Shown here: positions 1,941 to 14,799 of the stretch, in pieces
How the letters are laid out: each line of letters begins with the position of its first letter
Numbering within the stretch: the first letter of the stretch is position 1
Origin: Robiginitomaculum sp.
GTDB taxonomy: Bacteria > Pseudomonadota > Alphaproteobacteria > Caulobacterales > Maricaulaceae
Assembly: GCA_015485155.1 (NCBI GenBank)
Contig: WFUF01000022.1
Coordinates: forward strand, 1-64,000
Length of the DNA stretch: 64,000 nucleotides
Direction: 5' to 3'
Program-made: the position numbers and the translations under genes
Notes under the pieces: model-generated
What the model was told of the DNA's origin: nothing
What the model saw: the letters and a program-made list of their open reading frames with translations, nothing else
Database searches by the model: none

Positions 1941-3395
1941 TCACGATGACTGCTCTATATCAAGACAGATATATTTAGTTTCTAAATACTCCTCGATACC
2001 CTGACGGCCACCTTCGCGCCCCAACCCCGATTGTTTGATGCCGCCAAAGGGCGCAAGTTCAGTCGAAATCAACCCGGTATTGATGCCAACCATGCCGGTT
2101 TCTAGACCTTCGGCAATGGTGTAAGCGCGATTGATATTGCTGGTAAACAGATATGACGCCAAGCCAAAGGGGGTGTCATTGGCCATTGCCAAGACCTCTG
2201 TGTCGGTTTCAAACTTGATCACTGGTGCCAATGGGCCAAAGGTTTCCTCGCGGGTAATTAACATGTCTTGAGAGGCATTGCGCAACACGGTGGGCTCAAA
2301 GAACAGACCGCCCAAGGCATGAGGTGCGCCGCCAGTTTCAACGGATGCACCCTTGGCCAATGCATCGGATAAATGGCTTTGCACTTTGGTCAAAGCGGCC
2401 TCATCAATCAGTGGGCCAAGATCACTGCCTTCGTTTTGTCCAGATCCAACGGTAAGGTCGGCAGCCAATGCGGTGAATTTTTCTACAAACTTATCATAAA
2501 CTCCACTTTGCACATAAAGACGATTAGCACAGACGCAAGTTTGCCCCGCATTGCGAAATTTGCACAAAATGGCTCCGGCTGCAGCCTTATCCACATCGGC
2601 ATCATCGAGCACAATAAACGGAGCATTGCCACCAAGTTCCAACGAGATTTTCTTTACTGTATCGGCGCATTGGCGCATCAAAAGCTGCCCCGTAGCTGTG
2701 GAACCTGTAAAGGTCAATTTACGTACCAGATGGTTTGTTGTTAGCTCGCCACCAATGGCCACCGGATCGCCCGTTATTACCGAAAACACCCCGGCAGGAA
2801 TGCCTGCTTCTTGGCTAAGCACCGCCAATGCCAGTGCAGATAAGGGTGTCTGTTCCGCAGGTTTTACCACCATGGTACATCCCGCAGCCAATGCTGCGCC
2901 GGCCTTTCTGGTAATCATGGCATTGGGAAAATTCCACGGTGTAATAGCGGCAACCACGCCCACGGGCTGTTTAACCGTCATCAAACGCGCGCCGGGCATA
3001 TGGCCGGGAATGGTTTCGCCATAGGTGCGCTTGGCTTCTTCGGAGAACCACTCGATAAAGCTTGCGCCATAGGCAATTTCGCCACGCGCTTCAGCCAACG
3101 GCTTGCCTTGCTCAAGGCTTAGGATTTGCGCTAAATCCTCTTGGTTTTGCATGATTAGTTCATACCAACGGCGCAGGATGACAGCTCGCGCTTTGCCGGT
3201 TTTTGCGCACCAATTTGGTAGGGCTTTGGCGGCGGCTTCAATCGCCGTTCGTGTTTCTTGCGCCCCCATTTTAGGTACATGCGCAATTAAATCGCCATTG
3301 GCTGGATTGTTAACAGTAATGGTCTCGCCGGACAATGCATCAATCCATGTGCCGTCAATATAGGCTTGTTGTTTTAACAGATTTAGTTTCGACAT
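1941..3395 (-). CDS. gabD: NAD(P)-dependent succinate-semialdehyde dehydrogenase
   Basis: Oxidises succinate semialdehyde to succinate, the second step of GABA degradation. It has the aldehyde dehydrogenase fold: the cofactor-binding TPWNFPNAM segment, FTGSTATG, the general-base Glu in LELGGNAPF, and the nucleophile Cys in GQTCVCANR. The C-terminal ELAPFGGIKQSGLGREGG is typical of GabD. The ATG at 3395 (MSKLNLLKQQAYI) is preferred over the upstream in-frame ATG at 3455, which would overlap the end of gabT by about 55 bp. Only 4 bp separate it from the gabT stop codon, so the two are co-transcribed as the last genes of the 11.4-1.9 kb catabolic operon. The length of 484 aa is normal. Confidence 0.93.
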   Translation of the reverse strand: MSKLNLLKQQAYIDGTWIDALSGETITVNNPANGDLIAHVPKMGAQETRTAIEAAAKALPNWCAKTGKARAVILRRWYELIMQNQEDLAQILSLEQGKPLAEARGEIAYGASFIEWFSEEAKRTYGETIPGHMPGARLMTVKQPVGVVAAITPWNFPNAMITRKAGAALAAGCTMVVKPAEQTPLSALALAVLSQEAGIPAGVFSVITGDPVAIGGELTTNHLVRKLTFTGSTATGQLLMRQCADTVKKISLELGGNAPFIVLDDADVDKAAAGAILCKFRNAGQTCVCANRLYVQSGVYDKFVEKFTALAADLTVGSGQNEGSDLGPLIDEAALTKVQSHLSDALAKGASVETGGAPHALGGLFFEPTVLRNASQDMLITREETFGPLAPVIKFETDTEVLAMANDTPFGLASYLFTSNINRAYTIAEGLETGMVGINTGLISTELAPFGGIKQSGLGREGGRQGIEEYLETKYICLDIEQSS

Positions 3396-3399
3396 GGTT

Positions 3400-4692
3400 T
3401 CAAGCCCCAAGCGCATTTTCAAGCATATCCAAACCCTCAGCCAGCATTTCATCACTTATGGTCAGTGGATATAAAAGCCGGATTGTTTCACCTGAAACGC
3501 CGCAACTAAGCAGGATCAGGCCGTTTTTAAAGGCTTTGGCGGTGACAGCTTTGGCTGCTGCTCCATCGGGGATATTACCACCGGGTTTGGTGACCAAATC
3601 AAACGCGACCATTGAGCCAAGGCCGCGTATGGCATCCATTGGGCGTAAGCTCGCATTGGCGGCAAATTCATTGAGGCGTTGCTTGACCATTTTGCCCAGT
3701 TCCACCGAGCGATTGAGCAGGTTCTCATCTTCGATCACATCTAGCACGGCTAATGCCGCGGCACATGCAATCGGCGAACCAGAATAGGTGCCGCCTAGCC
3801 CGCCGGGACCAACGCTGTCCAGAACATCGGCGCGGCCAATAACGGCGGAAAGTGGAAAGCCCCCGGCCAAGGATTTGGCCGCAACCAACATGTCAGGGGC
3901 AATGTCGCTGTGCTCGATAGCAAACAATTTGCCAGTACGGCCAAAGCCGGTTTGCACTTCATCGGCGATCAGCATAATGCCGTGTTGATCGCATATTTTG
4001 CGCAAAGCCTGCATCAACTCAATCGGGGCTGCATGAAAACCGCCTTCGCCTTGAACCGGCTCGATAATAATCGCCGCCACGCGATCGGGAGCAATATCGG
4101 CGCGAAACAAATGTGTCAGCGCATTCAAGCTCGCTTGCACATCAATGCCATAACGCGCAATGGGAAATGGCGCATGATAGACCTCGGCTGGCATTGGGCC
4201 AAACGCGCCCTTATACGGCACCACTTTGCCGGTTAAAGCCATCGTCATCATAGTGCGCCCGTGAAACCCTCCGCTAAAGGCGATAACACCACTGCGACTG
4301 GTGGCGGCGCGGGCAATCTTAACCGCGTTTTCTACGGCTTCGGCGCCGGTGGAGAACAAAACGGTTTTGGCTTTTCCATTGATCGGCGATACGGCGTTTA
4401 GCCGCTCGCAAAGCGTTACATATGGCTCATAAGCTGCCACTTGAAAGGCACTGTGGGTCAGGCGCTGTATTTGTTCATTGGCCGCAGCAATTATTTTGGG
4501 ATGACAATGACCGGTGTTTAACACCGCAATGCCGCCAGCAAAATCAATATAACGTCGTCCTTCAACATCCCATAGGGTCGAGTTTTGTGCGCGCTGCACA
4601 TAAATCGGCGCTGCCGTAGCGATGCCTTTGGCTACAGCATTTTCACGGCGAGCAATTAAGTCTGCATTGGTTTTCATTATTTGGATTTCCAT
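3400..4692 (-). CDS. gabT: 4-aminobutyrate aminotransferase
   Basis: Class III PLP aminotransferase that moves the amino group of GABA to 2-oxoglutarate, giving succinate semialdehyde for the adjacent GabD. Visible motifs are FSTGAEAVENAVKIAR, FSGGFHGRTMM, the PLP-contacting Asp in LIADEVQTGFGRTG, and the PLP lysine in LVAAKSLAGGFPLSAV. The ATG at 4692 overlaps the stop codon of the MFS gene (TAATG). A second ATG at 4677 (MKTNADLIAR) is an equally plausible start, with GGAA about 10 nt upstream. The length is about 430 aa, as expected. Paralogous ornithine or 5-aminovalerate transaminases are possible, but the pairing with gabD favours GABA or a close omega-amino acid. Confidence 0.92.
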   Translation of the reverse strand: MEIQIMKTNADLIARRENAVAKGIATAAPIYVQRAQNSTLWDVEGRRYIDFAGGIAVLNTGHCHPKIIAAANEQIQRLTHSAFQVAAYEPYVTLCERLNAVSPINGKAKTVLFSTGAEAVENAVKIARAATSRSGVIAFSGGFHGRTMMTMALTGKVVPYKGAFGPMPAEVYHAPFPIARYGIDVQASLNALTHLFRADIAPDRVAAIIIEPVQGEGGFHAAPIELMQALRKICDQHGIMLIADEVQTGFGRTGKLFAIEHSDIAPDMLVAAKSLAGGFPLSAVIGRADVLDSVGPGGLGGTYSGSPIACAAALAVLDVIEDENLLNRSVELGKMVKQRLNEFAANASLRPMDAIRGLGSMVAFDLVTKPGGNIPDGAAAKAVTAKAFKNGLILLSCGVSGETIRLLYPLTISDEMLAEGLDMLENALGA

Positions 4693-5882
4693 TATTCTTG
4701 TGTGTTGTTCTGGGCGTTCACTAGATCGAGATTGCGAGCCGGAAACAGCATTAAAAAACCAGAAAGTGCTAAACCGATTAGGGCTAGATTGATCAGCGAT
4801 CCAAAGCCAAGGCCGGCATCTAATACCCGCCCGGCGATCATCGGGCCGGTTGCCAGTCCCATCTTTGAAACAAACCCGCCCAACGCCGACGTGCGCCCGG
4901 ATTTATCAAACTCGGCGGTCATGCCAAAAAGATAGGCAATGGCCATGCCCCACGTAATACCGGTGCCGCAATTGGCCAGCAAATAAGCCCAAGGTGAGGC
5001 GCTAAGGTGAAATAATGCAGTGCCAATCAAGGTTAAAACAATACCGATTGCCAGCGGCCAAAACCGCCCAAATCGCAAGCCAATAACCATCACCCCTAGC
5101 GGCCCGATCAAGGCAATCCATGTGGCCAAGCCCAACGCCATGGAGACAAAATTGGTGTCCAACCCATAACCACGTCCAAGGTGAATGATGAAGGCAAGCA
5201 GAGCCATATTAGCCATTTGAAACAAAAAGATAGCCGCCAATGTTTGCACCAGAGGCAAGGTGCGCACTTTATCCTTATTTACCAAAGGACGACTTACCCT
5301 GTCGGCATCATAGCGATCCAAAAACGGAACCATCAGCAAGGTGGCAAAGCTAAATACTGCCAATGAAAGAAATAAAGCTTGGGTTCCAAAGATCGGCACC
5401 AAGCGCGGTAGGAACATCACGCCCAATCCACCAAGGCCAAACTGCACAAATAACAACATGCCAAAAGTACGGTCAGGGGATTGGGTGCGTGCAATCACAG
5501 AAAAAGCCGTGCCCACCAAAAAACCGCCGATTAGCCCATGAACAAAACGCAATGGCAGCAAAATTTCTGCCGAGCGAATGGCAATGGAGCCAAGATCCAA
5601 TGCAATTAAGCCAATTAAAGCCAGCACCACCATTGGCCTCCACGGGAGGCGTTTGACTACAGCAAAAGCAACAATCCCCCCCAAGGCCGCACCATAAATA
5701 TTGGCCGATCCAATATTGCCTGCCGCGCCTTCGCTAAGACCCATGCCTGATACTAGTCCATCAACAATCGCCGCTAAAATATTGACATAAAACAACCCCG
5801 CCGTGGCCAGAAACGCTAAAAAAACAGCCGCCAACAACCCATCTGGAGCCGCCTTAGGAAAGCGTGATATTGATGTGTTCAT
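4692..5882 (-). CDS. MFS transporter
   Basis: Major facilitator superfamily permease of 396 aa with about twelve hydrophobic segments (starting AVFLAFLATAGLFYVNILAAI and ending ALIGLALSGFLMLF). Between the halves is a charged cytoplasmic loop (FLDRYDADRVSRPLVNKDKVR). Its ATG overlaps the stop of the upstream hydrolase gene by 4 nt (ATGA), and its stop overlaps the gabT start, so it is translationally coupled within the catabolic operon. By position it probably moves the product released by the periplasmic hydrolase across the inner membrane. The substrate cannot be read from the sequence. It is not a classical GABA permease (GabP belongs to the APC family). Confidence 0.85.
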   Translation of the reverse strand: MNTSISRFPKAAPDGLLAAVFLAFLATAGLFYVNILAAIVDGLVSGMGLSEGAAGNIGSANIYGAALGGIVAFAVVKRLPWRPMVVLALIGLIALDLGSIAIRSAEILLPLRFVHGLIGGFLVGTAFSVIARTQSPDRTFGMLLFVQFGLGGLGVMFLPRLVPIFGTQALFLSLAVFSFATLLMVPFLDRYDADRVSRPLVNKDKVRTLPLVQTLAAIFLFQMANMALLAFIIHLGRGYGLDTNFVSMALGLATWIALIGPLGVMVIGLRFGRFWPLAIGIVLTLIGTALFHLSASPWAYLLANCGTGITWGMAIAYLFGMTAEFDKSGRTSALGGFVSKMGLATGPMIAGRVLDAGLGFGSLINLALIGLALSGFLMLFPARNLDLVNAQNNTQE

Positions 5883-8071
5883 TGTGATGGCTCCATAGGA
5901 AATGCGCGGTATGCATTGGCTGCAATAACCGCTTTAGCCCAAGCATATTGATTGTTGTCGCTGATGTAGTAATAGACCATGCCATTGGGCATAAGCACCA
6001 CTGACAAGCCGCCAAAACCGGACATAAAAGGCACCCAAAGTGCAGATTTTTGTTTCAAGGCACCGCTGGCATCCCAAGCCCAAAAGCCATTATTATAGCG
6101 AAAGTCTTTGCTAGGCGCTGGCAGACCGGGATCATTTGAGTCCATTTGTAAGGCGGCGCGTAACACACCAGTATCAATCACACTTTCGCCGTTAATCCGT
6201 CCATGATCCACCGCAATGAATTGACTGATTTTCGCCAGATCATCAGGTGTAAAAGTAAGCCCCCAGCCTACATACGGCTGCGCCACAGCATCACGAGTGC
6301 GCCTGGTTTTATAGCTAAGCGGTGACAGATTTAAAGCTTTCCAAATCGGGTCAACCAACAGGTCTTGGTAAATATCGGCATCAATTCCACGACGTTCACG
6401 CCAAAAACCTTGCATGGCCGTGCCTAAAACATAATGATCCGTAGTATGATAAACCCACTTAGTGCCCGGTTTGCTTTTTCGGGGGTACAAAGAACAAGCT
6501 CGGTTAATTTTGCGCTTATGATCCGGCACAATGAAAAACCCGTCTTGAACTGCGGCGTTTTCATCTTTTTCATTTTTTGCCGATCTATAGCGCCCGGTAG
6601 CCATATCCAGCGCATGGCCAAAACCAATGCCGCTCCATCCAGCCTTGGCGCATTGCGGCACATAGGTTTCGATCAGAGCGCTTTCTACCTCTGGGTATAA
6701 CTTTTTCAGGCGCATCATGCTAAGGCCGGCAAAAATGGATTTTGCTAATGAATAAGAAGGAATAGCCAAATTATCACAAAATGGGTATGGCCCATACCGA
6801 GTCTGGCAACCGCCAAGATAATGCACCCCATCAAGTATCACCCCATAGGCGGTCATGGCTTCTGGAGTTACATCATCTGGCGAAGCAAAAGCACTGATAT
6901 CAAGGCTCGGATGATCGGTGGCAAGCGAGCTAAAGGCGCGGGTTGGCATCTTGTTTTGTAGTTCTTGCATAAAGGCCGCGCGCAAACCCTTGGCATTATC
7001 CACCGCTCCTGGCGCGTAAGTGATACTTCCGGTTCCCCACATATCATATTGAAAGTAAGGGCAGGTTTCGGAGACGATTTGATAGGCAGCACGGGAGGTT
7101 TCGCCATCAGGCTTTATGAGAAAACTCAACACGCCATTATGTGTGCAATTGGCGTTACGTTCTTGTAAGGAAAATGGCAAAGCCGCCCGAGAAAATCCCG
7201 CATCGCCAGATTCACGCCAAATTCGCCCCGTTTCCACTATGATATCCCAAGCCTCATTATCGGTTCGGATCAGGCCGCGGGTTTTTGGCACAAGGCGATC
7301 ACCCACCTGCACAAAGCTAAGATCAAACCCCGGTGGTACGCCCAAGCCTTTTACTTGGTTGTCTAAAAAACCAAAGCGATCGCGCAAAATCTTCATTTGC
7401 GCCGATTTTTCAGAAACATAAAACGACAAACGGCCTTCGATATTGACCGCAGTTTGGCTTGCACCCTCGGCCGCAATATAGGCACTCATGAGCAAGGGGT
7501 TTGCCATGTTCTCTACGCCAGTCAGAAAGTCTGAAGACAGTGCCGTGCGTGCCTGCGGCTCGGTTGTTGTTGTTTGCTTGGGTAAAGCAGTAACGGTAAT
7601 ATTATCTGCCCAACACGTATCATCCTTTTGATTGCCAGCAGCGCGCAAGCGGATCAATAAAGGCGGCCCGCCTTTGGTCTTCGTGTCCAAAATTGCCGAA
7701 CCGGTATATAGGGTCAGTCCATCATCAGCGCCGTCTTCAACCCGCAATACCTCAGTCCATTTTTTGCCGCCAGAAGTCGAGGCCTCTGCAATACAGGCAT
7801 CAGTTTTTTCTAAATTAATTGCCGCAAATGATGCAGATATGCGCACCTGTTCCGGCCCCTCAATATTTAGACCAATCAGCGCACTAGCTGAACGGTTCAG
7901 GCGCAATGAAACATTGCCGTCATAGGTGGTTAGTCGAATATCGCCCTTGCCTGCAGACTGCCAACCATCGGCATTGCCGTCTTGAAAGTCTTCGGCAAAT
8001 AAGGTTTGCGCGTCGGCTGATGTGATAAGAAAAAGCAGGCTAAGCGCACCCAACACGACCTTAATGAGCAT
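5879..8071 (-). CDS. Secreted SxxK serine hydrolase (beta-lactamase/DD-peptidase fold) with N-terminal jelly-roll-like region
   Basis: A 730-aa exported protein. The start at 8071 is chosen because it gives a good signal peptide (MLIKVVLGALSLLFLI, cleavage near SADAQ) preceded by GGAACGAG. Residues about 25-150 (EDFQDGNADGW.., ADNITVTALPK) look like a beta-sandwich carbohydrate/ligand-binding module. The C-terminal half carries the catalytic SLAK of SYSLAKSIF (the SxxK motif), a YHT in WVYHTTDHYVLG at the place of the usual YxN, and FGGLSVVLMPNG near the end. Class C beta-lactamase-like proteins cleave amides or esters, and many in TonB clusters are not antibiotic-resistance enzymes. It lies between the TonB receptor (49 bp away) and the MFS gene (4-nt overlap). 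I infer that it trims the imported compound in the periplasm. Confidence 0.82.
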   Translation of the reverse strand: MLIKVVLGALSLLFLITSADAQTLFAEDFQDGNADGWQSAGKGDIRLTTYDGNVSLRLNRSASALIGLNIEGPEQVRISASFAAINLEKTDACIAEASTSGGKKWTEVLRVEDGADDGLTLYTGSAILDTKTKGGPPLLIRLRAAGNQKDDTCWADNITVTALPKQTTTTEPQARTALSSDFLTGVENMANPLLMSAYIAAEGASQTAVNIEGRLSFYVSEKSAQMKILRDRFGFLDNQVKGLGVPPGFDLSFVQVGDRLVPKTRGLIRTDNEAWDIIVETGRIWRESGDAGFSRAALPFSLQERNANCTHNGVLSFLIKPDGETSRAAYQIVSETCPYFQYDMWGTGSITYAPGAVDNAKGLRAAFMQELQNKMPTRAFSSLATDHPSLDISAFASPDDVTPEAMTAYGVILDGVHYLGGCQTRYGPYPFCDNLAIPSYSLAKSIFAGLSMMRLKKLYPEVESALIETYVPQCAKAGWSGIGFGHALDMATGRYRSAKNEKDENAAVQDGFFIVPDHKRKINRACSLYPRKSKPGTKWVYHTTDHYVLGTAMQGFWRERRGIDADIYQDLLVDPIWKALNLSPLSYKTRRTRDAVAQPYVGWGLTFTPDDLAKISQFIAVDHGRINGESVIDTGVLRAALQMDSNDPGLPAPSKDFRYNNGFWAWDASGALKQKSALWVPFMSGFGGLSVVLMPNGMVYYYISDNNQYAWAKAVIAANAYRAFPMEPSQ

Positions 8072-8120
8072 ACTCGTTCCGTAATAAAATTGCATTGTTA
8101 TAACCAAACCAAGTGTATCG

Positions 8121-10517
8121 TTAAAAACTCACATTCAAGGCCACGCCAATGGTGCGCGGCAAGGTGATGAATTTACGGGCATTGCTACCATAAAAGTCGG
8201 CTGCTGTATTGGGTCCAAAGGCTGCAGGTGTAAAAGATCCAGTCGTGCCTGAAGTGTTGCCAATGTTTTTAACAAATAATGACGCGTTCCATTTATCAGC
8301 AGCCACAGTAAAGGTCATATCCACTACTGCGAAGCCGTCAAATTGTACTGCCTGAAATACATTTTGATCCAGTACATTTTGCGTTGAAGACTGATAAAAT
8401 CCGTCAAAACGACTGATAAAGTTCATGCGATTATTCAAAGGAATGGTGTAATCAGCGGCCACATTAAACGAATGTTTGGCAACACCGGGTAAAGGTGCAC
8501 CATTGGCGGCTACCATCGTTCCCGTGGTAAGGCCAAAACCCGGCGGGGCAATAAAGTCTTTGGTTAACTTTGCATCTACAAGGGTATAGCCGATAGAATA
8601 GTTAAACATGCCATCGTCGCTACTGCCGCTGATTTGTGCCTCAATGCCTTGCGAGCGGGCTTTATCCGCATTGGCCACGGCAAAGAAAAAGCCGTTAGGT
8701 GTCGAGGTGTTAAATTGTGGATTGCTCCAGTCGATATAAAATGCATTCAAATCATATCGAAGACCCGAGGCAATGCCTTTTATACCTACTTCATAATTAA
8801 GGGCTGTATCGGATTGAAAGGTTAGCCAAGCCGGATTATTAGCAAATTGCCCAGTGGTCGGCACGCCATTACTACCACCACGTCGATAGCCCTCAGAAAT
8901 GGTCGCATAAAGCAGGTCGTCATCGCTAAACTCATAGGCGGCGTTTGCTCTGAATAGAATTTTGCTGTCTTCGGCGGTAAAAATGGTATCGGCTTGTCCA
9001 TTGAAGAAGGTATATGGTCCCGCGCGCACAAACGTATTGGTAATGGATTCGTTATCAAAATAACGAAGCCCGCCAGTAAGCTTAAAGCGATCAGTTAAAT
9101 TGGCAGTCAGTTCTCCAAAAATTGCGACTTCTCTGTAATCCTCTTTGCGATCAAAGGTGAATATATTATCGGTAAAAACAAAATCAGTGAGAAAGAAAGC
9201 ATCAGCCCAATCTTCAAAACCCACAAGGTCACTTACTTGTGTTGCTCCGCGAGTTTGATCCTGGTAAAATGCACCCAAAACATAGTCAAAGCGGTTTTCC
9301 CCAATGGAAACCAGACGAACTTCTTGAACAAAAGACTTATCGGAAAAGGTCCGCTTTGCTGTGTAAAGTGGCCGTGGAAAAACAAATGTGGGCGAGACAT
9401 AAAATTGTGCCAGATTGTTGGCAAAAAAGCCGGTGTTATCGGTCTCACTATTGCCTGTGTTTTCGTAATATGATGTGGCTGAAGTCAGGCTAGCAAAGCC
9501 TAAGTCAATATTAGCTTCCAGCGACCCCATATCCAAATTGCGCTTGGCTGGTTCTTCAATCACCGCACCGTTTTCATATTTGCCATAGGCAGCTCCTAGT
9601 CCGTCATTGCCTTGGCTGGGTTGCCGACGACCGCCGCTATCATCCGACTGGTAAAAATAACTAGCCACAAAGTCGACGTTTTCTGTCGGAGCCCAACGCG
9701 CACTAATCCGTGCATAAAGGCTTTGGTAGGTATCGGCATCTTTTTTGGTACGGTATTCTGCTGAATCTGCGCCTAGGTCAAAAATCCCATTAGGCTGGGT
9801 TGGAACGCCATTATTGTCGAGTACATACAGGTTCGTGTAATCAGTGATACCGGGATAATCTTGCCACAACACATTGGCGCGAATGGCAAATTTATCACTT
9901 ACCGGCGCATTAAAAATACCGCCAGCCGAATATCCAAGGCTGCCAGAGCCGTCCACCGAGGATGCTGTTCCAATAAAACTGCCGCTAACTTCGTCGAACT
10001 GCGGCTTGCGGGTGAAATACTTTACTGTTCCACCCAATGCGCCTGAGCCATAAAGCGTGGCTTGTGGCCCGCGTTGCACTTCGACACGATCAAGGTCAAT
10101 TAGTGCCATATTGGCAAAAACAGGGGTTTCATTGACATAAGTAGAGACCGTTGGTACCGAGCCAAGCAGAAAATCCCCAAAAGCCGAGCTATCCACATTA
10201 AGGCCACGAATACGAATGCTGTTGAACTGTATATTACGCTGTCCTTGATCAATCTGACTGACCCCGGGAATGGTGCGCAGTAACTCAGCAGAATCCAATG
10301 TGATTGCATCAGCAATATCGGCACCGGAAACAACAGAAATGTTATACGGTACATCTAAAATATTTTCCTCTCGGCGCTGGGTCGTGACTGTTATTTCATC
10401 CGTAGCCTTTGCTTGTTCACTTTCTTGCGCAAAAGCTAGACCCGGCGTTAGGATTGTGCACCCTAGCAATAGGCTTAGTAGCGAGCGGCTTGTAAGTTTT
10501 TTGCGTGTGTTAAACAT
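8121..10517 (-). CDS. TonB-dependent outer membrane receptor
   Basis: A 798-aa outer-membrane beta-barrel importer. It has a signal peptide (LLSLLLGCTILTPGLAFAQ), then a TonB-box-like start of the plug (DEITVTTQRREENI), plug motifs (VPYNISVVSG, IRIRGLNVDS, VEVQRGPQATLYGSGALGG) and a barrel ending in the aromatic-terminated strand IGVALNVSF. The start has a strong AAGGAGAT ribosome site 8 nt upstream. Only 37 bp separate it from the carbon-nitrogen hydrolase, so the two are in one operon. The ligand is unknown. The downstream GABA genes suggest a compound containing 4-aminobutyrate or a related amide; iron-siderophore uptake is less likely because no iron genes are near. Confidence 0.93.
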   Translation of the reverse strand: MFNTRKKLTSRSLLSLLLGCTILTPGLAFAQESEQAKATDEITVTTQRREENILDVPYNISVVSGADIADAITLDSAELLRTIPGVSQIDQGQRNIQFNSIRIRGLNVDSSAFGDFLLGSVPTVSTYVNETPVFANMALIDLDRVEVQRGPQATLYGSGALGGTVKYFTRKPQFDEVSGSFIGTASSVDGSGSLGYSAGGIFNAPVSDKFAIRANVLWQDYPGITDYTNLYVLDNNGVPTQPNGIFDLGADSAEYRTKKDADTYQSLYARISARWAPTENVDFVASYFYQSDDSGGRRQPSQGNDGLGAAYGKYENGAVIEEPAKRNLDMGSLEANIDLGFASLTSATSYYENTGNSETDNTGFFANNLAQFYVSPTFVFPRPLYTAKRTFSDKSFVQEVRLVSIGENRFDYVLGAFYQDQTRGATQVSDLVGFEDWADAFFLTDFVFTDNIFTFDRKEDYREVAIFGELTANLTDRFKLTGGLRYFDNESITNTFVRAGPYTFFNGQADTIFTAEDSKILFRANAAYEFSDDDLLYATISEGYRRGGSNGVPTTGQFANNPAWLTFQSDTALNYEVGIKGIASGLRYDLNAFYIDWSNPQFNTSTPNGFFFAVANADKARSQGIEAQISGSSDDGMFNYSIGYTLVDAKLTKDFIAPPGFGLTTGTMVAANGAPLPGVAKHSFNVAADYTIPLNNRMNFISRFDGFYQSSTQNVLDQNVFQAVQFDGFAVVDMTFTVAADKWNASLFVKNIGNTSGTTGSFTPAAFGPNTAADFYGSNARKFITLPRTIGVALNVSF

Positions 10518-10554
10518 TGGAAATCTCCTTTTGTCCTCGAAATTGATGGTTTGC

Positions 10555-11430
10555 TCATTGGCTTTTATTGTCTTTGTTGGTGTTCGCTTTTTTGGCCATG
10601 GCTAATGGGCCGAGCGCCGTAAGAGCAGATGAGTCATTGTTGTTCTGATAAATTGAAAAAGGTGTTTTATGGTCACGAAAGCTTTTCAACGGTTGGGCTA
10701 AATTGTGCCAGCCTTGTGTCCGTACCCGGCGCACATATTCCAGATCAATTTCGATCGGTATAATCTCGCGACCCGCACCCGCTTGATGGATAATTTCGCC
10801 GCCAGGCCCAGCGATGATTGAACGTCCAAAAGCCAATTTTCCCGTAGAATTAATATCGAAAAAATAACATTGATTGGTCACAGCACTAGATCTGGCAATC
10901 GCCAATTCCGCATCGCGATCCAAAGTATTGGTTAAGCTGGGGTGTAAAATCACCTCGGCACCCATGGAGACCAATGTGCGTGTGGTTTCAGGAAACCACA
11001 TGTCATAACAAATGGAAACACCAAAACAGCCAACGCCATCAACATCGAAAACCGTGAATTCTTCGCCGCTGGCCACATCAACTTCGTAAGGCAAAAATGG
11101 AAACATTTTGCGGCATCGGGTAACGACTTCACCTGCCGGGTTTATGACCGGAGCAGTGTTGAAAATCTTGTCGTCTTTTTTTTCATACAAACTGCCAGGT
11201 AATATCCATAGTCCGGTTTCTTTGGCCAACGAACAAAAATGCTGCTCTGCGGTACCAGGCATGGTTTGGGCGTGTTTTAGGCCGGTGCCAAAACTTGCCA
11301 GTTCTGCAAGCACAACCATATCGACCCAAGGAAAGCGCTTGTGAACGATCCTGATTTCTTCACACAACAGATCAATGTTGTCTTTGGATTCTAGCTCCAG
11401 TTGTAGAGCGGCAATTGCAAATTTGGACAC
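10555..11430 (-). CDS. Carbon-nitrogen hydrolase (nitrilase/omega-amidase superfamily)
   Basis: Cytoplasmic amidase/nitrilase-fold enzyme of 291 aa. The catalytic Glu-Lys-Cys triad is visible: Glu in VVLAELASFG, Lys in CRKMFPFLP, and Cys in GVSICYDMWFPE. The GTG at 11430 (VSKFAIAALQLELES) is chosen because a perfect AGGAGG lies 4 nt before it; the ATG at 11463 would place AGGAGG inside the gene and add ten non-homologous residues. It is the first gene of the operon leading to gabT and gabD. The likely role is to hydrolyse an amide, nitrile or N-carbamoyl compound to a free omega-amino acid, but the exact substrate is not readable from sequence. Confidence 0.88.
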   Translation of the reverse strand: MSKFAIAALQLELESKDNIDLLCEEIRIVHKRFPWVDMVVLAELASFGTGLKHAQTMPGTAEQHFCSLAKETGLWILPGSLYEKKDDKIFNTAPVINPAGEVVTRCRKMFPFLPYEVDVASGEEFTVFDVDGVGCFGVSICYDMWFPETTRTLVSMGAEVILHPSLTNTLDRDAELAIARSSAVTNQCYFFDINSTGKLAFGRSIIAGPGGEIIHQAGAGREIIPIEIDLEYVRRVRTQGWHNLAQPLKSFRDHKTPFSIYQNNNDSSALTALGPLAMAKKANTNKDNKSQ

Positions 11431-11511
11431 AGCACCTCCTGAATACTTTTCCCCGCTTTGCACGAGGCTATCCTGAGGTTACTTCTATGGGTTGGAGCAG
11501 ACTAATAATAG

Positions 11512-11564: not shown

Positions 11565-13409
11565 TTACTTCTTGGTACGGCGCACCAATATTGCCCAATC
11601 CACCAGGTGACCATCTTGGTGGAACCATTCGATACGCTCGCCCCGTAACACCACGCGAAAGCGACCCACTTCGCCATACGACCATTCGGACCATTTACGA
11701 CACCAGTAATCACCCTCGACCCACCACGTACCATGGTCGCGATCTTCATTGGCAAAGCCGGCACGACCTTGCATCTCGCCATTACGACTCAGCACGATGG
11801 TGCAAGGATCGCCATATACTGTCTTACATAGTAATTTGGCTCCGTTACAGACGCGCTTAATGGCTGACCCAGAAAGAGCTTGCGCTGCATCAAAGTTAGT
11901 TTTTGAAGGAGTAGGATCCATGGTTTCACGAAAAGCATTTGCAAAAGCAGCAACACCATCTCGAATTTTACTTTCAACAAGACCGGTAATACCTAAACGG
12001 AAAATATTGTTGGGAACCACGCGCGAATAATAATCATGTACTGGCTCGATCAAGACACCGTGAGTTCCGGCGCGTTTCACCAACAACTGGGTGTCTAGGG
12101 TTTTAGGGCCAGTTATCCAAGCTGAAGTTCCAATCCGAGTTGGCAAAAGGGAAATTTTGTTCGGCAGATAATAGTTAAGTGCTTCACGCAAAGCGATCAT
12201 GCGCTTAGCAAACGTTTCTTCAACATGCCTCAGCAGCGCAGCATAATGACCAAGCGCCAACATGTGGGCAAAAGTGCGCTGTATGCTCAAGGCTGGATGG
12301 CGCGCGGTAATGCGGCGCAAATTTCGTGCGGCGCGGATTACTGGGATAGGAGCTACCAGCACCCCCAATCGGATGGCTGGTGCCAATGGTTGGGCTAATG
12401 TCGCCATATATATCACATTTTCCCCGCCCGGAGTACCGCGTAAAGCAGGAGGGGCGTTAGTGCTCAAGCTCGTTTCCCATTGGCAATCATCTTCGACAAT
12501 AATTTTCCCTGATTCTACCGCGGCCTGTAATAGCAAAGCCCGGCGTTCATCGCACAAAGTCGCTCCGGTCGGGCGCTGGCAACCAGGGGATACAAAAATT
12601 ATATCCGCAGCCTGTATTACTTCGGCACTGAATTGCATGCCGTTTTCATCTACATCAAGAGCCGTGATTTGGATTTTCTTTTTTTGCAATAGCATCCGTA
12701 ATTCAGGATGGCAGGGATTTTCCAGAACCACCCTCATGCCATCATGCACCAAAAGATCACATACCAGACTTAATGCTTGTTGCGTGCCCGTGGTCACCAA
12801 AACTTCTTCGGACTGTACGCTAATGCCATTTAACGGCAAAACTTTGCGCCTTAATTCGTCCACTAACATCGGATCATCGGCATCACCGGCATTGCGAGTC
12901 CAAATATTGATTTCTTGAACCGAAAGCGCGCGGCGGCTGGCTTCTCGCCACTGCGCCACAGGAAATAATGAGCGATCAAAAGGGCCGTCGACCAGCGGGT
13001 ATGGATATTGATCCCAATCGGGAGGCAAGACCGAGGTGAAACTAGGCAATGCTACTGGGGCTAAGCGCGCACGCCATACTGATTGGTTTATACTCTGCCT
13101 GGAACCGGTGACCTGTATCGCACCAAGATCGCGTCCGAACATACCCTCACGAACAAACAAACCGCGTCGATCCTTACTGATTAAATGACCATCGGACACC
13201 AGCCGGTCATAGGCCATGATTATGGTGTTTCTAGAGACACCAAGGTCATGGGATAATTGCCTGCTCGGTGGCATACGCGTTCCGGCAATCAATACCCCCA
13301 AGGCAATATCGTCAATAATCTTGCGGCGAATTTGTTCTTGCAGGGAGAGCGAGCTATTGCGCTCAATCGCAATGCGCAGATTTGCAGTATGAGAAGGATC
13401 CGTTATCAT
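11565..13409 (-). CDS. MocR/GabR-type regulator (GntR HTH + aminotransferase fold) lacking the PLP lysine, with C-terminal DUF995-like domain
   Basis: A 614-aa transcription factor. Residues 1-75 form a GntR winged helix (LSLQEQIRRKIIDDI, MPPSRQLSHDLGVSRNTI). Residues about 110-500 are an aminotransferase class I fold. Residues about 505-614 are an added domain rich in Trp and Cys (HGTWWVEGDYWCRKW, RVVLRGERIEWF) that resembles DUF995. In GabR/MocR proteins the PLP lysine sits in TFSKxLxPxxR; here the segment reads TLAQPLAPAIR, with Gln340 (codon CAA) replacing Lys. The usual DDY is DDC, and the PxHQxPTG motif is PGCQRPTG. A covalent PLP aldimine therefore looks impossible. It lies directly upstream of, and in the same direction as, the amide/GABA operon and probably controls it. 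Confidence 0.9.
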   Translation of the reverse strand: MITDPSHTANLRIAIERNSSLSLQEQIRRKIIDDIALGVLIAGTRMPPSRQLSHDLGVSRNTIIMAYDRLVSDGHLISKDRRGLFVREGMFGRDLGAIQVTGSRQSINQSVWRARLAPVALPSFTSVLPPDWDQYPYPLVDGPFDRSLFPVAQWREASRRALSVQEINIWTRNAGDADDPMLVDELRRKVLPLNGISVQSEEVLVTTGTQQALSLVCDLLVHDGMRVVLENPCHPELRMLLQKKKIQITALDVDENGMQFSAEVIQAADIIFVSPGCQRPTGATLCDERRALLLQAAVESGKIIVEDDCQWETSLSTNAPPALRGTPGGENVIYMATLAQPLAPAIRLGVLVAPIPVIRAARNLRRITARHPALSIQRTFAHMLALGHYAALLRHVEETFAKRMIALREALNYYLPNKISLLPTRIGTSAWITGPKTLDTQLLVKRAGTHGVLIEPVHDYYSRVVPNNIFRLGITGLVESKIRDGVAAFANAFRETMDPTPSKTNFDAAQALSGSAIKRVCNGAKLLCKTVYGDPCTIVLSRNGEMQGRAGFANEDRDHGTWWVEGDYWCRKWSEWSYGEVGRFRVVLRGERIEWFHQDGHLVDWAILVRRTKK

Positions 13410-13550: not shown

Positions 13551-13580
13551 TCAAGGCGGCTGGCAAAGAGGAAGGGATTG
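13551..13580. repeat. Left direct repeat of the tRNA-Ser 3' end (candidate att site)
   Basis: This 30-bp stretch matches 14699-14728 at 26 positions, including an unbroken 14-bp start (TCAAGGCGGCTGGC). The right copy contains the encoded CCA, discriminator and 3' acceptor/T-arm part of tRNA-Ser plus 10 bp beyond it. The left copy keeps TGGC (CCA end) and AAGGGATT but has AAAGAGG in place of GGAGACG. A partial copy of a tRNA 3' end lying 1.15 kb downstream of the intact tRNA is the signature of an integrated element. Confidence 0.6.
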
Positions 13581-13735
13581 ACGCGCTATGAGCGCCACAT
13601 CTGCGCGGCAAAGCCGCTTGTTGTCGAAAAGGTTCCGTCCACCTTTTCTCCTCCACCACCGCTTAAACCTGCTTTGGCCGGTTTTAGCAGCGCTGGCGGT
13701 GAACGCAGTCTCGACCCAAACTGTATCTACCCAAT

Positions 13736-14540
13736 TTCCCTGTTTAACAGGAAATTTACAGGGAAAATATCATTATTTAGATCTAATTTCACTCCCAAGC
13801 CCAATAGTTGATTGAAAATATTAGAGTTTTGTAAGTTTTCCCTAAAAAATTAGCAGGGAATTTTATTTTTAGAACAGGAAAATAAATAAGCTTAACAGGC
13901 ACCAATCCAAACCTGCATTGAGTTAGGTTAAGCTTACCATCATGCTTTCACTATCTGCTCTGGCACAAAGCCTGGGCTGTGACCCAGATGCGCTTAATCC
14001 TGAAAAACTAATAATCAAGGCCGACTTCCAACTTCGTAAAAAAGGCGTGGAAAGCAAAATCATCCTTGGTGATTTTGAAGCCGACCTAGATCAAACTATG
14101 ATCCGGGCTATGACCAAAGCCCATGGTTGGATGAAAGAAGTACGCAAAGACGTATCTGCCGCCGCCATCGGTAGACGACATGGCTGGACCGATGCACCGG
14201 TTCGTCAACGTTTGAAACTGGCGTTTCTGTCTCCCAAAATCACCCGGGCTATTTTGCAGGGAAACAACCCATAGAGCTAACTTTAAAAAAACTCCTGACA
14301 TCGAAGGTTCCTTTAGACTGGGATGAGCAATGGAAGTACTTGGGCTTTGCAGATATAAAACTCCCAAAATAATTCCCTGCTAAGAAAGACAATTACCCTG
14401 ATAGAGATGGAAAAATTCCCTGTTATGTATTTAGGGAAACCACTTGCAAGTCATTGAAAATATGAACTATACGGGGATTTTCAATAGCTATTCCCTGCAA
14501 AAATTACGATTTTCCCTGTATATTCCCTGCTAACAGGGAA
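13736..14540. repeat. Cluster of CAGGGAA/TTCCCTG repeats
   Basis: Exact 7-mers occur as TTCCCTG at 13736, 14373, 14416, 14491, 14512 and 14523, and as CAGGGAA at 13759, 13854, 14257 and 14534. Near matches lie at 13748, 13838, 13875, 14394 and 14432. Ten exact copies in about 800 bp far exceed chance for a 7-mer, which is roughly eight copies over the whole 64-kb window on both strands. The copies are in both orientations, often paired head-to-head, and flank and invade the HTH gene. They look like a protein-binding array, possibly for that HTH protein. Confidence 0.7.
13942..14372 (+). pseudogene. Recombinase C-terminal-like HTH protein, frameshifted
   Basis: The first open frame (13942-14274, 110 aa) has a beta-rich start (IIKADFQLRKKGVESKIIL) followed by a helix-turn-helix (TKAHGWMKEV, AAIGRRHGWTDAPVRQRLKLAFLSP, ITRAILQGNNP). 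This resembles the tail of alphaproteobacterial serine recombinases. The stop TAG at 14272 interrupts it. Reading on in the frame one base earlier gives 33 more residues that carry the family's expected ending (PLDWDEQWKYLGF) before a TAA at 14370-14372. Adding one C to the CCC at 14269-14271 would restore a protein of about 143 aa. An in-frame TAG lies just upstream of the ATG, so no catalytic domain is attached. There is no good ribosome site. A sequencing error in the C-run cannot be excluded. Confidence 0.6.
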
Positions 14541-14545: not shown

Positions 14546-14698
14546 TGCTACCCGATCTCCGCAAAATGACCAACAGAGATAAAGCCCCTAAATATCATAA
14601 AAACGACCCTGATACGTTGGTCTCAGAACAAGCCAATCACGCTAACCCCCCGTAACGTCGGGGATATAAACGCAGCATCTGATTAGTTATTTGAAAGA

Positions 14699-14728
14699 TC
14701 AAGGCGGCTGGCGGAGACGAAGGGATTC
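14699..14728. repeat. Right direct repeat overlapping the tRNA-Ser 3' end
   Basis: Partner of 13551-13580 (26 of 30 positions match). It covers 10 bp beyond the tRNA plus the CCA, discriminator, acceptor 3' strand and part of the T-stem. This is the copy that preserves tRNA function. Confidence 0.6.
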
Positions 14729-14799
14729 GAACCCTCGAGACGGGAACACCGCCTACTCCCTTAGCAGGGGAGCGCCTTCGACCACTCGGCCACGTCTCC
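14709..14799 (-). tRNA. tRNA-Ser (anticodon GCU)
   Basis: The reverse strand gives a 91-nt class II tRNA with acceptor GGAGACG/CGTCTCC, discriminator G and encoded CCA. The anticodon arm is CTCCC/CTGCTAA/GGGAG (anticodon GCT). It has a long variable arm and T-arm GAGGG/TTCGAAT/CCCTT. Its 3' end is the boundary of the remnant element to its left. Confidence 0.96.

Follow-up and report, generated by a model that had tools for sequence, protein, structure and literature searches.

Introduction

The MocR regulators are the textbook example of how cofactor chemistry can make a sensor out of an enzyme. GabR of Bacillus subtilis, which is linked to gabT and gabD, joins a winged helix-turn-helix (wHTH) to an aminotransferase-fold domain, has Lys312 and acts through a PLP-GABA external aldimine. 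The ectoine regulator EnuR/EhuR has the same two domains, and EnuR controls a catabolic operon; its Lys302 was conserved in all 278 EnuR proteins that the authors inspected and is required for induction, and a Lys302His variant loses PLP, is not inducible and behaves as a constitutive repressor (PMC8739950). The equivalents of GabR Lys312 and Asp279 are reported to be conserved in all MocR clusters (PMC6677901). In the open-access literature, outside which many subscription papers lie, we found no description of MocRs that lack the lysine or carry a barrel tail.

Here we analyse a regulator encoded in a 64,000-nucleotide stretch of a Robiginitomaculum sp. genome, hereafter the window. A preliminary description, made from the sequence alone, had presented it as a GabR-type protein with glutamine in place of the PLP lysine. 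The regulator gene and its features are as follows.

11565..13409 (-), MocR-type regulator without the PLP lysine, 614 amino acids, ATG start, likely first gene of an operon
13152..13343 (-), GntR winged helix-turn-helix, residues 23-86 (PF00392, E 9.7e-14)
11988..12977 (-), aminotransferase-fold domain, residues 145-474 (PF00155 Aminotran_1_2, E 2e-7; GabR and PdxR alignments; fold match)
12489..12491 (-), codon 307, Asp, opposite GabR Asp279 in the alignment, kept
12390..12392 (-), codon 340, CAA (Gln), opposite GabR Lys312 in the phmmer alignment
11568..11879 (-), predicted C-terminal barrel domain, residues 511-614, conserved across the tailed family

Results

A MocR-type regulator without the cofactor lysine

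The regulator, besides which no other GntR-family protein was found in the source genome, has the N-terminal GntR wHTH and the large C-terminal domain of the fold-type-I aminotransferase type that characterise MocRs, and at Asp307 it keeps the residue that in GabR (Asp279) faces the PLP pyridine nitrogen. It resembles GabR over residues 13-417 and lies, like GabR, in one gene run with gabT and gabD; PdxR (7pq9) aligns over the whole aminotransferase domain. However, where GabR has Lys312, PdxR keeps its lysine and EnuR keeps an invariant one (PMC8739950), the window protein has Gln340 (phmmer against 4n0b/4mgr, E 2e-32). In the same alignment Arg347 corresponds to GabR Arg319 and Cys277 stands opposite His248, whereas GabR Tyr205, Arg207, Phe250 and Tyr281 are replaced by His234, Glu236, Arg279 and Cys309. 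A C-terminal tail distinguishes the protein from both GabR and PdxR, and the operon of PdxR is a different one. The label 'GabR-type' proved too specific, as the best NCBIfam profile is that of PdxR (275 bits, below the equivalog cut-off of 320) and the GabR profile scores 149 bits against a cut-off of 600. Judged by its sequence, the regulator is a MocR descendant with MocR architecture that lacks the defining lysine, and we do not file it among the PLP-aldimine regulators.

Glutamine at this position is not peculiar to one assembly. Codon 340 is CAA in the window and CAA or CAG in relatives from the genus, and Gln340 recurs in four other Robiginitomaculum genomes (96, 85, 75 and 71% identity) and in three more distant loci. 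Together with dN/dS, the five genomes of the genus rule out a sequencing error or a pseudogene. Comparisons inside the genus with unsaturated synonymous change give a dN/dS of about 0.04-0.19, alike for the wHTH, the aminotransferase domain and the tail; the closest pair gives up to 0.21, on few changes. The regulator is under strong purifying selection, in agreement with the earlier view that it is not simply decaying. It could be argued that PLP sensing has ceased to matter and that the protein is heading for decay through ordinary relaxation, since several cofactor-contact positions are unlike those of GabR. However, with glutamine fixed over about 50% protein divergence, dN/dS this low, and the reading frame and operon intact in every genome seen, this explanation is largely refuted and we consider it very improbable.

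The preliminary description had also held that an internal aldimine is impossible, and that a conserved lysine elsewhere in the pocket would overturn this. A scan of residues 100-510 in the alignment of the Gln clade found no substitute pocket lysine. Only one lysine, Lys189, is common to the tailed family and its Gln clade; it also occurs in members that keep Lys340, and none of the aligned cofactor motifs contains it. Lys244, Lys418 and Lys445 are clade-specific and scattered. Since the PLP lysine is gone and the alignment offers no replacement, the claim stands for the usual PLP internal aldimine, which on this evidence cannot form in the window protein. Two further changes that had been stressed, DDC for DDY and PGCQ for PxHQ, are both present but carry little weight, because lysine-bearing tailed relatives also depart from GabR there and PGCQ is confined to two genomes. 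DDC (Cys309) is a feature of the genus, and most of the tailed family, lysine-bearing or not, has Phe in place of the Tyr. PGCQ (Cys277) is confined to the window and the neighbour at 96% identity, other relatives having PGRQ, PSRQ or PSHQ. Lysine-bearing tailed relatives likewise differ from GabR at the positions of Tyr205, Arg207, Phe250 and Tyr281.

Lysine loss among tailed relatives

The tail, a 104-residue domain that the preliminary description did not mention, is shared by the full-length orthologues but missing from GabR, PdxR and ordinary MocRs. Among 54 non-redundant tailed proteins, the lysine position is occupied by Lys in 32, Gln in eight, Arg in seven, Glu in three, Ala in two, and Asp and Asn in one each. 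The lysine is thus absent from 22 of 54 tailed proteins against two of 129 tailless ones; two tailed proteins found later have Lys and Ser. The lysine-less proteins include those of the cultured strains Luminiphilus syltensis (Asn) and Novosphingobium chloroacetimidivorans (Arg), and the lysine-bearing ones those of Maricaulis salignorans and Euryhalocaulis caribicus. All 38 tailless relatives have Lys (L085, with Arg, was excluded from this count as its contig ends before the tail), as do 89 of 91 further alphaproteobacterial MocRs, the other two having Arg. These two (L213 and L236) are tailless, and rare losses therefore occur outside the tailed family too. Viral contigs gave no match.

In trees made without the motif columns, the gain of the tail falls on one branch as one change, showing a single origin of the tailed architecture, and the lysine position changes at least six times, with Lys kept in the basal tailed lineages. 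A single clade of all lysine-less proteins was rejected (p-AU 4e-38), which rules out one loss for all of them; a clade uniting the Gln proteins, one Arg group and the Glu/Asp proteins was not rejected. Because these three may share one origin, we count at least five independent losses and not six, a minimum that the trees place on a secure footing. The survey thus upheld the loss noted in the window and showed that its protein is not a one-off but one among several such cases in the tailed subfamily. The existence of lysine-bearing tailed members indicates that the tail is by itself no substitute for the lysine.

The Glu/Asp clade also lacks the equivalent of Asp279, at the Asp307 position. 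In another family of the same order, four tailed MocRs (L131, L133, L134 and L135) have Glu or Asp for the lysine and Ile for the Asp279 equivalent, a cofactor loss that goes beyond that of the window protein.

The tail and its constraint

No Pfam domain matched the tail even at E 10, which rules out DUF995 or any other Pfam domain, and it apparently represents an unnamed domain family. An AlphaFold model built from 56 aligned tails (pLDDT 93.2) has one helix and eight strands, and the tail is accordingly predicted to be a lipocalin-like eight-stranded barrel. The closest solved folds are lipocalin-like bacterial barrels (4gzv, 4i95, 4iab and 4u3q; VIA Z about 10, rmsd 2.6-4.2 over 88-99 residues), although Z values near 10 may stem from a common arrangement and the fold compared is a predicted model; the best Foldseek E value was no lower than 7e-3. 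Those barrels share about 10% identity with the tail and are separate, mostly exported proteins, whereas the tail is fused to a regulator. Small exported proteins also contain stretches related to the tail, as do alphaproteobacterial Ser/Thr kinases at their C-terminal end (L101, L103, L105, L108, L110, L113, L116 and L252). The full-length model of the regulator had a low pLDDT (62.8), and contacts between tail and pocket were therefore not read from it.

To compare rates, branch lengths were re-estimated per domain on one fixed topology and subtree lengths were compared by clade; divergence-matched pairs were compared as well. The ratio of tail to aminotransferase subtree length was 0.66, 0.70, 0.72, 0.48 and 0.78 in the five lysine-less clades, where the tail is thus the slower of the two domains; the eight lysine-bearing clades, where it is mostly the faster, gave 0.90-2.12 (Mann-Whitney p 0.0008). 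The clades were delimited after the tree was seen, and some may not be independent, three of them possibly sharing one loss. The tail/wHTH ratio was 0.21-0.76 in lysine-less and 1.03-6.2 in lysine-bearing clades, and the aminotransferase/wHTH ratio did not rise where the lysine was absent. Because the tail ratios are lower in lysine-less clades and the aminotransferase/wHTH ratio is not raised, these substitution rates show that the tail, and not the aminotransferase domain, gained constraint where the lysine went.

A GABA-linked operon

Downstream of the regulator in the window lie the following genes.

10555..11463 (-), carbon-nitrogen hydrolase of the nitrilase superfamily (PF00795, E 3e-32)
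8121..10517 (-), TonB-dependent receptor (PF00593, PF07715)
5879..8107 (-), SxxK serine hydrolase, beta-lactamase fold family (PF00144, below the cut-off here and above it in the orthologue L034)
4692..5882 (-), MFS transporter (PF07690)
3400..4692 (-), gabT, 4-aminobutyrate transaminase (TIGR00700, over the cut-off)
1941..3455 (-), gabD, succinate-semialdehyde dehydrogenase, whose true start may be further in (TIGR01780, over the cut-off)

Since the genes from the regulator to gabD all run in one direction and either overlap or are separated by short gaps, they likely form one operon headed by the regulator. It had been stated that the regulator sits beside gabT and gabD; the two are not adjacent to it, but they are the last two genes of the run that it begins. 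A carbon-nitrogen hydrolase lies directly 3' of the regulator in 39 of the 40 tailed loci with downstream sequence (L053 having a fragment only) and in none of 38 tailless loci. Longer stretches have the order regulator, hydrolase, TonB receptor, TPR-sulfotransferase, serine hydrolase, MFS transporter and gabT/gabD in either order, with the TPR-sulfotransferase absent from the window and its nearest relative. Both gabT and gabD are found in 14 of 21 long tailed loci and one of the two in five more; in the loci with Glu at the lysine position, gabT starts divergently upstream of the regulator. Gene order and content are independent of the presence of the lysine. This GABA-linked uptake operon (window 1941-11463; L136-L156), with its TonB receptor, TPR-sulfotransferase, SxxK serine hydrolase and carbon-nitrogen hydrolase, is conserved and apparently undescribed.

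On plasmids, homologues of the nitrilase lie with agmatinase and 5-guanidino-2-oxopentanoate decarboxylase in Shinella and with gabT in Roseobacter ponti, which hints that amides of GABA or guanidinobutyrate may be the substrate of the operon. Because of the operon content and these neighbours of the hydrolase homologues, the effector is probably GABA, or an amide of GABA or guanidinobutyrate.

Alignment and word counts gave no convincing operator 5' of the regulator, where a promoter-like TTGGCT...TATCGTAT is common to the genus. Further upstream, 10 of the window's 21 TTCCCTG/CAGGGAA words (about nine expected in the whole window) fall within 805 bases (13736-14540) between the regulator and a tRNA-Ser(GCU) gene at 14709-14799, surrounding a 110-residue open reading frame (13942-14271) with no significant Pfam match. 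By eye, a stretch like the 3' end of the tRNA gene recurs near 13556 (13556-13600 against 14697-14799), which resembles the outcome of an old integration at a tRNA.

Discussion

Since EnuR Lys302His cannot be induced (PMC8739950), a lysine-less member that remains under selection needs another way to respond. In our model, the regulator heads an operon that takes up and degrades a compound from which GABA is released, probably an amide or conjugate. A small lipocalin-like barrel would have been fused to the C terminus of an ancestral regulator; with the barrel present, the PLP-aldimine lysine would have become dispensable and been lost several times, and lysine-less lineages, that of the window included, would no longer sense their effector through a PLP aldimine. 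The aminotransferase domain would stay as a dimer scaffold, relaying to the DNA-binding heads, and effector binding would most likely fall to the barrel. Ligand binding by the barrel, with the aminotransferase domain still dimerising, is what we infer for these lineages, and we put the chance that fusion of the barrel made covalent PLP sensing dispensable in this way at about even. More tentatively, we propose a class of one-component regulators in which the fused barrel has repeatedly taken over sensing from the PLP aldimine, with the aminotransferase domain left as a cofactor-free scaffold, on one conserved operon.

The preliminary description had reasoned that the protein must sense something else or bind a ligand or PLP non-covalently, and the emptied pocket is indeed a candidate sensor, though not the sole one now that the C-terminal barrel is another. 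The aminotransferase pocket might still be the sensor through non-covalent binding of PLP, PMP, a preformed PLP-amine adduct or a carboxylate, the tail having a structural or DNA-related role. The Gln clade and most of the other lysine-less clades retain Asp307, Gln210, Glu230, Arg347 and Arg471. Every tailed protein has Arg471, which varies among tailless ones, and in lysine-less clades the pocket columns are better conserved than the remainder of the domain. The retention of Asp307, Gln210, Arg347 and Arg471 in the Gln clade argues against a hand-over that left a pure scaffold, which would not need them. Nevertheless, the Glu/Asp clade has lost Asp307 besides the lysine, EnuR Lys302His loses its PLP along with induction, and it was the tail whose constraint rose after the losses, so that we regard a pocket sensor as the less likely reading, though the main rival to the barrel.

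It has also to be considered that the lysine-less proteins are blind to any effector, acting as constitutive DNA binders that hold operon expression constant or tie it to growth, or that shape nucleoid architecture at the promoter, as the constitutive repression by EnuR Lys302His might suggest (PMC8739950). Yet the aminotransferase domain and tail are under strong purifying selection and the tail is more constrained in lysine-less clades, which would not be expected of an effector-blind protein, and we judge this reading improbable.

The cofactor lysine has been described as universal in MocRs, and the tailed subfamily has lost it repeatedly with the same target operon. Lysine-less members beside close lysine-bearing relatives amount to paired natural mutants, in which a change of the sensing part without loss of the genes can be tested. 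If our reading is correct, the tailed subfamily would offer a natural series of sensor hand-overs, before and after the loss of the cofactor lysine, on one conserved operon.
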